Assembly (NCBI RefSeq): GCF_000340565.2
Contig: NZ_CP007203.1
Location: forward strand, 3,721,931 to 3,754,808
Source of the DNA: Nodularia spumigena CCY9414
GTDB taxonomy: Bacteria > Cyanobacteriota > Cyanobacteriia > Cyanobacteriales > Nostocaceae
Length of the DNA stretch: 32,878 bases
Direction: 5' to 3'
The notes beneath the pieces were generated by a model. It saw only the letters and a program-made list of their open reading frames with translations, made no database searches and had not been told where the DNA came from. The position numbers and the translations under genes were made by a program. This document shows positions 28,407 to 31,621 of the stretch, piece after piece (the first letter of the stretch is position 1; every line of letters begins with the position of its first letter).

Positions 28407-29610
28407 GCCTTCCCAAACCAGTTGTGTGTTCAGTATGGAAATTTTCTCGTACATTTAACAAAGGATACCAGATAGATTCTATAGTTTGGGCTATGGTCAT
28501 GATGGCATCTCGGTTTTGATGATCTACTAACACGGTGACGTGTCCCAGTTTGCGCCCAGGACGTGATTCGGTTTTCCCGTACCAGTGAACGAAAGCCTGG
28601 GGAATTTCGGCTAATTTTTGGCGCTGGCTTTGGTAGTCGCTTTGTGAAATTTCATACCCTAGAAGGTTAACCATGACAGCACTAGCACAATGTAAAGCCG
28701 GATTTCCCAAAGGTAAGCCACAAACGGCTCGCAAGTGCTGTTCAAACTGAGATGTTTCACAAGCGTCTAAGGAGAAATGCCCAGAATTATGGGTACGAGG
28801 GGCAATTTCATTGACCAAAACTTTCCCGTCGGGGGTGAGAAATAGTTCTATACCAAAAACGCCCACGACTTGCAGGTTATTTAAGAGAGTATGAGCGATC
28901 GCCTCAATTTCTGCGGCTTGATTCGGTGTAATATCAGCAGGTGCAATCACTCGCCGACATACCTGTTCTTCTTGTTGAGTTTCTACCACTGGGTAAGTCA
29001 CAACCTCACCCTCTACAGAACGAACCGCAATTATTGCTAATTCTCGTTCAAAGGTGACAAATTCTTCAATTAAAAAAAATCCTTGACTAAAAGCTTTATT
29101 TGTGTTAGGTAAATTTAGCTTTTGCTGCAAATCGGCTAAATCTTTAATAATGAAAGTCCCTTGACCATCGTAACCGTGCCGACGGGATTTTAAAACCACC
29201 GGAAAACCCAAGTCTTCTATTTGAGACGCGAGATTTTCGGGTTCTTCCACCGCGAAAAATCTGGGAACAGGTAAACCCAAGTCTTTTAAATAGCAGCGCT
29301 GCTCATATTTATCTAAAAGCGGAGTTAAAGCTTCTAACCTGGGTCGAAAGCAAACACCTTGATTTTCTATAACAGATAAAGACTCTAAATCAACAAATTC
29401 ATTTTCAAAGGTAATGACATCAGTTTTCTGTGCTATAATCTCTGTGGAGCTAGCATCATCAACTTTAGCCAAAACAGTATCCTGGGCGATCGCTACAGCA
29501 GGATCATCCAAACTAGGAGTTTGCACCACTAATTCAACGCCTAACTTTTTAGCTGCGCCTCCCATCATCCAGGCTAGTTGCCCACCACCAATTATACCAA
29601 CACGCTTCAT
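28402..29610 (-). CDS. purK: 5-(carboxyamino)imidazole ribonucleotide synthase
   Basis: PurK makes N5-carboxyaminoimidazole ribonucleotide from AIR, ATP and bicarbonate in purine synthesis. The 402-residue ATP-grasp protein starts MKRVGIIGGGQLAWMMG and shows the ATP-grasp blocks FPVVLKSRRHGYDGQGTFII (about 135-155), FFLIEEFV, and the metal-binding LVNEIAPRTHNSGHFS (about 262-277). ATG 29610 overlaps the stop of the upstream pentapeptide gene as ATGA and has AGG six bases upstream; a second ATG at 29616 is possible. purK is thus translationally coupled to a gene now interrupted by an iscB element. 6S RNA follows immediately. Confidence 0.95.
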   Translation of the reverse strand: MKRVGIIGGGQLAWMMGGAAKKLGVELVVQTPSLDDPAVAIAQDTVLAKVDDASSTEIIAQKTDVITFENEFVDLESLSVIENQGVCFRPRLEALTPLLDKYEQRCYLKDLGLPVPRFFAVEEPENLASQIEDLGFPVVLKSRRHGYDGQGTFIIKDLADLQQKLNLPNTNKAFSQGFFLIEEFVTFERELAIIAVRSVEGEVVTYPVVETQQEEQVCRRVIAPADITPNQAAEIEAIAHTLLNNLQVVGVFGIELFLTPDGKVLVNEIAPRTHNSGHFSLDACETSQFEQHLRAVCGLPLGNPALHCASAVMVNLLGYEISQSDYQSQRQKLAEIPQAFVHWYGKTESRPGRKLGHVTVLVDHQNRDAIMTIAQTIESIWYPLLNVRENFHTEHTTGLGRL

Positions 29611-29987
29611 CGACATCCTAGAGAATAACGAGTTTCTACACCAGTTTTAGAGTTTACACCACTGGCTTTGCTGCAAAGTTCTTTAATTTGCACGCCATCC
29701 AAAATTGCATCTGTGAAATCCGCACTGTCTATATTCACATCCGTAAAGGTGGAGCGTAGCAAAAGAGCTTCTTTGAAAACCGCATCGCTCAAATCAGCCC
29801 CGGCGAACTTTACCTGATCCACCATAGCATTAGTTAAATCCGCCCCGTGCAGATTCGCCTGAGTCATTACCGAAGCACTCATGACGGCTCCCCGTAAATC
29901 AGCATCTGCAAAATTAGCTAATTCCATATTGGCGTTAGAGAACTCAGCCGCTTGTAAACTTTGTCCAGAAAAATCTCGTCTTTGCAT
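29607..29987 (-). pseudogene. Pentapeptide-repeat protein, C-terminal part (gene split by iscB element)
   Basis: The 126-codon frame begins MQRRDFSGQSLQAAEFSNAN and continues with A(D/N)LxxA pentapeptide repeats (about residues 15-105), which fold as a right-handed quadrilateral helix. It ends with a Cys-containing tail (ELCSKASGVNSKTG, SLGCR). It lacks the signal peptide its family carries; that is found on the other side of the iscB element (31493-31621). The ATG used here comes from the edge of the inserted element. Only residues from about RDFSGQ onward belong to the original gene, so any product would be cytoplasmic. Its stop overlaps purK as ATGA. Confidence 0.85.
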
Positions 29988-30017
29988 TTAATCTCATAAA
30001 ATTGTAGTTGTCCGTAG

Positions 30018-31295
30018 TCAAACGTAGCTATACCCGTCACTACAATGAACCTTAGTAATATCTTTCATTGTTGAAAATTCAACTCTAAAACCATTGATAA
30101 CAATCTCACATCCGTTTTTTGTGGGAGTTTTAACACGACTTACATACTTTCCAGAAGTTATGTTTTTACGATCTTTGTGCAAAGTAGCCTTAACAAAATC
30201 TCCTGTAGAAACATGAGTGAATATTTTTTTAGGCTCAGTGCAAGGAAAACCAAATTTATTGATCCTACAGAATCTTCTGCAACTATGCCCCGTGCTTTTT
30301 ACTGTTAAAATTTTTGTTGTCAGTATTTTGAGAGTTTCAACTTTTCCTACACAAGCAGCATCAATCCAATGAGTTTTAGGCAATCCTAAACGAGTTCTAT
30401 TAAACTTAGTTAAACCTCCTGAACCTGTTGTTATAGGTAATCCAGTTTCTTTTAACTTATTAAATAAAGCCCATCTCGTTGAATTTACAGCAGACGCATC
30501 TTTTAGTGGACGCTTGGCTTGGGATAAAATTTGCTTCAACAACTCAGGCTTTTTTGCTAAAAACTTCTCAATATCTTGAGTACCTTTTTTGATATTGCAT
30601 TTCTCACAAGCTAGACACAAATTAGAAATTCTATTAGTTCCTCCTTTGGCTTTTGGTTTAATATGCTCAACTTGTAAAGGGACATTTTCCGCAGTACAGT
30701 ATGCACATTTTCTATTCCATTTATTCAAAAGATATTCACGGACTTCATACCCTTGTAACTCTCCCTGTTGATACTCAAAGCCTGATATCTCCGGGTTTTC
30801 TAGCTGCTGTAGGTCAAACCTAGCAAGCTCTTCAACTATGTCAGTTATTGGGGCAAAATTACATAATCTTTTAACCCAAGTGTTAATAGTTAAAACTCTA
30901 TGGCTTAAAGAAGGTGCTAACCAACCTTGAGGTTTAGTGCGGTTAAGAAATCTAGCTTGACGATAACGAGTATGTCTAGAACGTCTTCCTCGCCTTACTC
31001 CTTTTCGAGTTTCTAGGCTTTCTTTAATAGCTAAACCTCTGTGTTGTAATTCCATACCCCAGATGACTTTATTATTTTGAACTAACGCAAAACCTGTAGT
31101 TTTACTCCCTGGATCTATTTTTAATTCAATCGGTTGAGTTGGAACTTCAGATTTAGGTTCTTTCAAAATTATGGTAAATGGAAATCTTCTAAATACAGCA
31201 GCTTTTTGTTGATTTAATAAAAAACGTGCATCTCCTGGATGAATTGGAGTAAGTGGTTTTTTGTTGGTATCAAGAACTAGAACAAAATTAGACAT
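30018..31295 (-). CDS. iscB: IscB RNA-guided nuclease (RuvC/HNH)
   Basis: IscB proteins are the compact ancestors of Cas9: they cut DNA under guidance of an omega RNA. The 425-residue protein has the N-terminal PLMP-type domain (KKPLTPIHPGDARFLLNQQK), RuvC-I with Asp61 (KIDPGSKTTGFAL), an Arg-rich bridge helix (about 97-119, RRGRRSRHTRYRQARF), and RuvC-II with Glu156 (IVEELARFD). The HNH domain (about 197-240) has a CxxC pair at 197/200 and 230/233 and His211. RuvC-III has His309 and Asp312 (HWIDAAC). The C-terminal domain (about 340-425) is the region that reads the target-adjacent motif in relatives. All catalytic residues are intact, so the nuclease is probably active. Confidence 0.95.
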   Translation of the reverse strand: MSNFVLVLDTNKKPLTPIHPGDARFLLNQQKAAVFRRFPFTIILKEPKSEVPTQPIELKIDPGSKTTGFALVQNNKVIWGMELQHRGLAIKESLETRKGVRRGRRSRHTRYRQARFLNRTKPQGWLAPSLSHRVLTINTWVKRLCNFAPITDIVEELARFDLQQLENPEISGFEYQQGELQGYEVREYLLNKWNRKCAYCTAENVPLQVEHIKPKAKGGTNRISNLCLACEKCNIKKGTQDIEKFLAKKPELLKQILSQAKRPLKDASAVNSTRWALFNKLKETGLPITTGSGGLTKFNRTRLGLPKTHWIDAACVGKVETLKILTTKILTVKSTGHSCRRFCRINKFGFPCTEPKKIFTHVSTGDFVKATLHKDRKNITSGKYVSRVKTPTKNGCEIVINGFRVEFSTMKDITKVHCSDGYSYV

Positions 31296-31492
31296 TTAAA
31301 TTTCACCTTTTCAGGGTAATGTTTGCTTCAACCTTGTTATCTGAGCTTGTTATGCTAAATACACTATCCTTGCGGATTGTTTAATAAGTAGCAACATGGC
31401 AGGGGACTAGCGAATCCCAAGGTGTTATGACCTAGATAACGTTTACTCATGTTTTGAGTGGTTTGGTTCACATAAACTACAGATTACTCCGT
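31296..31492 (-). ncRNA. Candidate omega RNA (HEARO) upstream of iscB
   Basis: The roughly 200 bases directly before the iscB ATG have no coding capacity and show an organised fold on the iscB strand: a long-range 7-bp stem GTTATCT/AGATAAC (31434-31440 with 31336-31342), enclosing GGGA/TCCC (31403-31418) and a GCAA-capped ATCC/GGAT hairpin (31366-31377); a TTACC/GGTGA hairpin lies just before the start codon. HEARO/omega RNAs are known in this position and of this size, with the guide at the 5' end. The exact 5' end and the guide are not shown by sequence alone. Confidence 0.65.
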
Positions 31493-31621
31493 TTATTTAT
31501 GCTCTCTGGCTAACTCTGCATTACTAAAAGACATGGGATGAGTCCAATCTGCCCAAGCTGGGGAAGCTAAGAGCCATACAGTAATTCCTAGAATAAATGC
31601 TAATCCTTGTTTCCAGAACAT
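31493..31621 (-). pseudogene. Pentapeptide-repeat protein, N-terminal signal-peptide part
   Basis: ATG 31621 begins MFWKQGLAFILGITVWLLAS followed by PAWA, a signal peptide with an AxA cleavage site, and then DWTHPMSFSNAELAREHK and a stop. FSNAELAR is the beginning of the mature protein that continues at RDFSGQ in the fragment 29607-29978. The last codons (EHK and stop) are supplied by the edge of the iscB element. The intact gene would have encoded a secreted or lumenal pentapeptide-repeat protein of about 160 residues. A TTG extension to 31678 is not needed. Confidence 0.85.

Follow-up and report, generated by a model that had tools for sequence, protein, structure and literature searches.

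Evidence for a recently active IscB/HEARO transposable element in an exported pentapeptide-repeat protein gene of Nodularia spumigena CCY9414

A recently active IscB/HEARO transposable element has very probably inserted into the gene of an exported pentapeptide-repeat protein of the brackish-water cyanobacterium Nodularia spumigena CCY9414. Within the known group of IscB/HEARO (ISC) elements, it is a new and recently amplified member. The genome hosting this iscB insertion is that of CCY9414, a Nodularia and not a Nostoc as the original prediction had implied, and the single gene that it interrupts lies on the minus strand of the window, i.e., of the whole stretch of 32,878 nucleotides that was analysed. 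An Rfam 6S match in the window overlaps the 6S RNA of N. spumigena CCY9414 reported at 3750385-3750114 (PMC3610870).

Read along the minus strand, the region consists of the signal-peptide half of the gene (ATG at 31621), a junction at about 31507, a non-coding region, iscB (31295..30018), a short tail, a second junction at about 29980 and the repeat half, which runs to 29607. The features are listed below in window positions.

31507..31621, minus strand: part of the interrupted pentapeptide-repeat gene that encodes the signal peptide (MFWKQ...NAELA; signal peptide judged by eye); in relatives its homologue is the N-terminus of the uninterrupted gene
31507..31526, minus strand: flanking gene sequence that would be expected, by analogy with OgeuIscB, to serve as the guide of the omega-RNA of the window copy
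29981..31506, minus strand: complete iscB/HEARO (ISC-type) element of 1,526 bp, in iscB sense 5'-GAGAGC...TGCAAA-3'; delimited by the ends of its copies in the genome (20 left, 20 right), by relatives from 98% to ~70% DNA identity and by empty sites
31296..31506, minus strand: omega-RNA (HEARO RNA) scaffold region with probable limits; Rfam RF02033 match at 31316-31477
31471..31501, minus strand: putative first omega-RNA hairpin, beside the element end; both partners changed in 3/7 outer-stem pairs, with 97.6% of cells paired
30018..31295, minus strand: iscB, 425 aa, RuvC/HNH RNA-guided nuclease; Pfam RRXRR and HNH, PDB IscB chains at E 2e-38 to 6e-30, catalytic residues aligned
29978..29980, minus strand: GAC target motif at the junction distal to the omega-RNA, predicted core of the IscB TAM; GAC at 20/20 intact right ends and at 13/14 empty sites of the gene
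29607..29980, minus strand: part of the split gene with the repeats (RDFSGQ... up to the stop); Pfam Pentapeptide E 2.9e-18

Copies, ends and target motif of the element

The CCY9414 genome contains 31 matches to the element: 30 have 99-100% identity, and the last is a short match of 71%. Twelve of the 30 element segments run from end to end, and the 11 complete copies other than the window copy differ from it at 1-4 positions. The full 425-aa ORF is present in ten of the 12 complete copies, while two have one inserted A. A search for the exact left-end pattern gave 20 hits in CCY9414 and none in 10 other genomes. The exact right-end pattern also occurs 20 times; a 21st match to it, with two mismatches, looks like coding sequence and was taken as chance. 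Truncated element ends adjoin runs of N in 15 cases, and four other ends represent one shared internal join (element positions ~132 and 703). One internally deleted copy (G000:C1:852303-853262, in the CCY9414 genome) retains both ends; its deletion takes in the last part of the omega-RNA region and the first part of iscB.

A single site cannot fix the cut, since AGA stands at both junctions of the window copy and creates a 3-nt ambiguity with four equivalent cuts. The other copies and the diverged relatives resolve the limits to 29981-31506. The original prediction had set the boundaries by eye, to a few bases, at 29979-31504; the length was right, and these limits were one of the four equivalent cuts, since replaced by the multi-copy comparison. 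The accompanying remark that the ends of ISC elements can rarely be defined was overstated. Comparing copies to define the ends of ISC/HEARO elements is established practice.

Alignments of diverged copies begin exactly at the first G of GAGAGC, and the base before it varies among copies (A in 14 of the 18 distinct left flanks of CCY9414). At the site of copy L012 this base is C, and it is likewise C in 5/5 relatives; thus the base before GAGAGC is host sequence. The GAGA left end and the GAC right flank are kept even in L071 and L072, which are ~70% identical to the element. Terminal inverted repeats are absent, the element ending in GAGAGC and TGCAAA, and comparison of occupied with empty sites revealed no target duplication.

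Insertion occurs immediately 5' of GAC on the iscB strand, most commonly with A before the cut and GACTR after it. GAC follows 20/20 intact right ends in the genome; the gap-adjacent right end L021, which has small indels and departs from this motif by reading GAA, was left out of the intact-end count. The 21 distinct right flanks (19 from CCY9414 and one each from L070 and L099) all begin with GAC, their fourth base is T in 14 cases, and their fifth is G or A in every case. The twentieth CCY9414 right end repeats the flank of another copy and has GAC there too. On the other side, the base before the cut is A in 15 of 20 distinct left flanks.

GAC is present in empty relatives at three of the five sites compared, these relatives being other species whose bases may differ from those of the strain that was hit. 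The element is absent at the L002 site from all 11 relatives read, eight of which have GAC (a twelfth matching relative is outside this count), and at the L010 site GAC was found in 7/7 aligned homologues. No GAC was found in the five relatives at the L012 site, where the junctions read GAG, GAG, GAG, AAC and AGT, or in the 11 more distant homologues (63-77% identity) at the L004 site. The 20/20 GAC count at right ends is independent of these contrary L012 and L004 results and of the hairpin-shuffle results given below, and our confidence is therefore unaltered. From the flanking sequences we predict GACNR as the TAM of the IscB of this element. For the L008 site, the left-flank stretch beside the junction was not found in relatives. 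The L008 left flank contains at query positions 663-741 an interspersed repeat of ~80 bp, which has at least ~40 matches in each of five Nodularia genomes.

No transposase ORF lies inside the element, and iscB is its only ORF. A Y1 search of the CCY9414 genome gave eight matches, namely five canonical TnpA and three RAYT-like proteins. A resident TnpA was considered as a partner and rejected: all five matches are from a single IS (IS605-like by eye), whose left end differs from that of the element and which has no BLAST match to it. Among 101 related loci (taken with flanks of 1.5 kb in 29 cases and of up to 3 kb in 72, with some places represented more than once), none had a TnpA- or RAYT-like ORF at E 0.01, and the same search was positive in 7/7 control loci. 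The missing linkage and the missing similarity to the resident TnpA-bearing IS would both suit homing by the nuclease alone, in which IscB cuts the empty allele and recombination copies the element with no transposase involved. Allelic homing, however, does not explain why the copies occupy unrelated sites with only about five bases in common, and the sharp ends and fixed 3-nt target resemble transposase cutting. We consider such homing improbable.

At G000:C1:4332609-4334703 a RAYT-like transposase domain (L067) stands ~220 bases away from the complete copy L012, a proximity that is presumably coincidental. Another RAYT-like Y1 domain, L066 (G000:C1:3424292-3424633, plus strand), opens an 829-aa frame that by eye runs into a subtilisin-type protease; this is either a fusion or a frame artefact. 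No coherent GC skew was seen across 20 stretches of 20 kb, the background against which a replication-strand bias of the copies, as a sign of single-strand transposition, would be judged.

Flanks of iscB copies are repeated with 98-100% identity in three regions of G000:C1 (at ~852k, 905-908k and 1353-1357k; L265-L267), two of which contain N gaps. This suggests mis-scaffolding or recombination between copies. At L010 the right flank matches genes in relatives and the left flank does not; by eye, the left flank of L015 resembles the missing part, and a rearrangement or mis-scaffolding between these copies is likely. The high copy number as a whole might be largely an assembly artefact of the draft scaffold, which would suit the 15 truncated ends at N runs, the three regions with common flanks and the full copy L007, whose left flank is also that of L020 and whose right flank is also that of L022. 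With 18 distinct left and 19 distinct right flanks in CCY9414, and with both flanks of the window copy belonging to one gene, this explanation is very improbable.

The interrupted gene and its empty site

The pentapeptide-repeat gene is a clear example of a host gene broken by an IscB-type element. When the flanks are joined by script with the element left out, they form a single open frame over the junction, 162 aa from MFWKQ at the ATG at 31621. The original prediction that the rejoined halves would give one in-frame protein thus held, and this protein matches the uninterrupted genes in relatives.

The repeat half has a match in 150/150 genomes, the own genome counted. Out of 29 relative loci fetched, 14 were read at the junction, and in all 14 relatives the gene is uninterrupted there, which confirms that the iscB element has split one exported pentapeptide-repeat gene. 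The junction in these relatives reads GCAGAGTTAGCCA directly followed by GACGTGATTT, or a variant thereof, and GAC stands at the empty junction in 13 of the 14. All nine relatives translated in the right orientation have one frame through the junction. Alignment of the joined sequence with relatives had been proposed together with the prediction, and it yielded one uninterrupted gene in them. The contrary outcome that had been named, a protein that in relatives always begins at RDFSGQ and lacks a signal peptide, was not observed. The observation is therefore confirmed, and its interpretation is supported.

Two genes that were always separate, a signal-peptide ORF and a pentapeptide ORF with the element between them, could be imagined from the plausible starts in both halves (the ATG of the repeat half being contributed by the element end), but the probability of this is close to nil, as it is already refuted by the uninterrupted orthologues with their 14 continuous junctions, nine single frames and open frames of 164-199 aa at the 29 relative loci (L032-L060) versus 126 aa at the split gene.

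The intact orthologue L035 matches the pentapeptide protein 2f3l/2g0y with E 1.8e-35 over 133 residues. The likeness to this pentapeptide (Rfr) protein is that of the uninterrupted orthologue, whereas the CCY9414 gene is broken after the signal peptide. At window positions 29981-29995 an ATG supplied by the right end of the element shares the reading frame of the repeat half, and GAG starts eight bases upstream of it. Because of these two features, the element end could restart translation of a version of the split protein without the signal peptide.

The nuclease, its RNA and their distribution

The expectation of an intact iscB with its RNA region between the two halves was borne out by the 425-aa ORF and by the Rfam match. 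RF02033 (HEARO) was found at 31477-31316 with 82.7 bits and E 1e-16, the gathering score being 83. The iscB product matches Pfam RRXRR (E 3.2e-72) and HNH (E 5.5e-11). Judged by the E-values of the HEARO and RRXRR matches (1e-16 and 3.2e-72), chance can be ruled out as their source. In PDB, the five top-ranking matches are all IscB proteins, including TbaIscB (E 2.2e-38) and OgeuIscB (E 3.7e-30). The catalytic residues D61, E193, H247, H340 and D343 of OgeuIscB (PMC9640706) align with D61, E156, H211, H309 and D312 of the window-copy IscB, i.e., five of five are kept. Residue 155, beside the catalytic E156, is polymorphic among copies (E or Q). IscB is regarded as the likely ancestor of Cas9 (PMC9640706).

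The CCY9414 element resembles known IscB/HEARO systems in its 425-aa IscB with RRXRR, RuvC and HNH, in the HEARO RNA directly upstream, and in having no linked TnpA; IscB without linked TnpA is common (PMC9755519). It differs from them in its own target motif, GAC(T)R, and in an Rfam score just below gathering (82.7 vs 83). The TAM of OgeuIscB is NNRR (PMC9640706), in contrast to GACNR predicted here.

HEARO scores above the gathering score in 11 of 16 related loci, among which L072 and L101 are the same sequence; L070, L099, L100, L103 and L104 are below it. In an alignment of six sequences, the first hairpin begins five bases inside the element, and the second omega-RNA hairpin has two of six pairs changed on both sides, with 85.3% of cells paired. 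Sliding the partner lowers the share of paired cells over all 16 pairs from 93.6% to 44.8% or less. The covariation score was reached by 0/500 shuffles, the number of both-side pair changes by 20/500 and the number of pair types by 241/500; three of the six sequences have the same first hairpin, and the structure was drawn from these same sequences. The covariation of the first omega-RNA hairpin may be taken as modest evidence. At the end distal to the omega-RNA no hairpin was supported, as single-sequence folds disagree between relatives. In the Dolichospermum copy (L099, at 2782) the second omega-RNA hairpin is 8 bases longer, and its four outer stem pairs are retained. The guide of OgeuIscB lies 5' of the scaffold (PMC9640706), and by analogy the guide of each copy would be the host DNA at the omega-RNA end.

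Among the papers listed for HEARO RNA, IscB and cyanobacteria, none concerns the CCY9414 element, as judged from titles and the openings of abstracts, and the sole match naming IscB with Nodularia concerns another subject, TnpB structure. For this genome, 164 transposase genes have been reported, grouped in families that each have 1-32 identical copies (PMC3610870), and the element may figure in the supplementary table of that paper under another name.

The element has a match in 68 of 150 genomes, its own included, in a set with one genome per species. Near-identical full copies were seen only in the CCY9414 genome and in one other genome, G076 (98-99%), and a 98% fragment in G031; copy numbers outside CCY9414 are lower bounds, with two candidates scored per genome. 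Three of four Nodularia congeners have no match, and one has a match of 64%. Among 72 loci the closest named relative by protein is that of Dolichospermum sp. UHCC 0259 (98% protein and 98.0% DNA identity), and short 96-100% pieces of the element occur in Dolichospermum sp. ST_sed8. The next genus after Dolichospermum follows at 74% by protein. The 98-99% identity in another genus, together with the lack of a match in three of four congeners, points to a recent exchange of the element between cyanobacterial genera.

Proposed movement and retention

Elements of the IS200/IS605 family (IS608, ISDra2) have no inverted repeats, produce no target duplication, and have a fixed short motif at one junction and a hairpin beside one end. 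The CCY9414 element shares these traits but has no TnpA, its motif adjoins the end away from the omega-RNA, and a hairpin at the other end is unsupported.

We infer that a Y1 (HUH) transposase of the IS200/IS605 type, acting in trans, would move the element as single-stranded DNA, and that this Y1 enzyme would cut the opposite strand after GTC. Every new copy would take the DNA upstream of its own end as the omega-RNA guide. The guided IscB would then cut chromosomes in which the empty site, where the guide sequence is followed by GACNR, had been kept or regained, and repair of the cut chromosome from the occupied copy would retain the element. An occupied site would escape cutting, since the first bases of the element are GAG instead of GAC. 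Many cyanobacteria are polyploid, and empty sister chromosomes in polyploid cells would offer targets to IscB. Retention by guided cleavage is suggested by what is known of the family; a gene-drive role has been reported for TnpB in plasmids (PMC11870625).

Taken together, this would describe a transposase-less IscB element that has passed from one cyanobacterial genus to another and then multiplied to ~20 or more copies in a genome, whose landing motif acts as the self/non-self signal of the nuclease (GAC when empty, GAG when occupied), and which is moved by a kind of transposase not yet matched to IscB. We offer this full scheme tentatively and consider it doubtful as a whole. If it is true, target choice and RNA-guided retention would be locked together by one base.

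One genome provides ~20 near-identical IscB elements with known ends and 18 distinct natural guide sites, and for several sites the empty counterpart is available in relatives. This would make the retention model of IscB, in its peel-and-paste or gene-drive form, testable in one strain, with a TAM (GACNR) predicted ahead of biochemistry.
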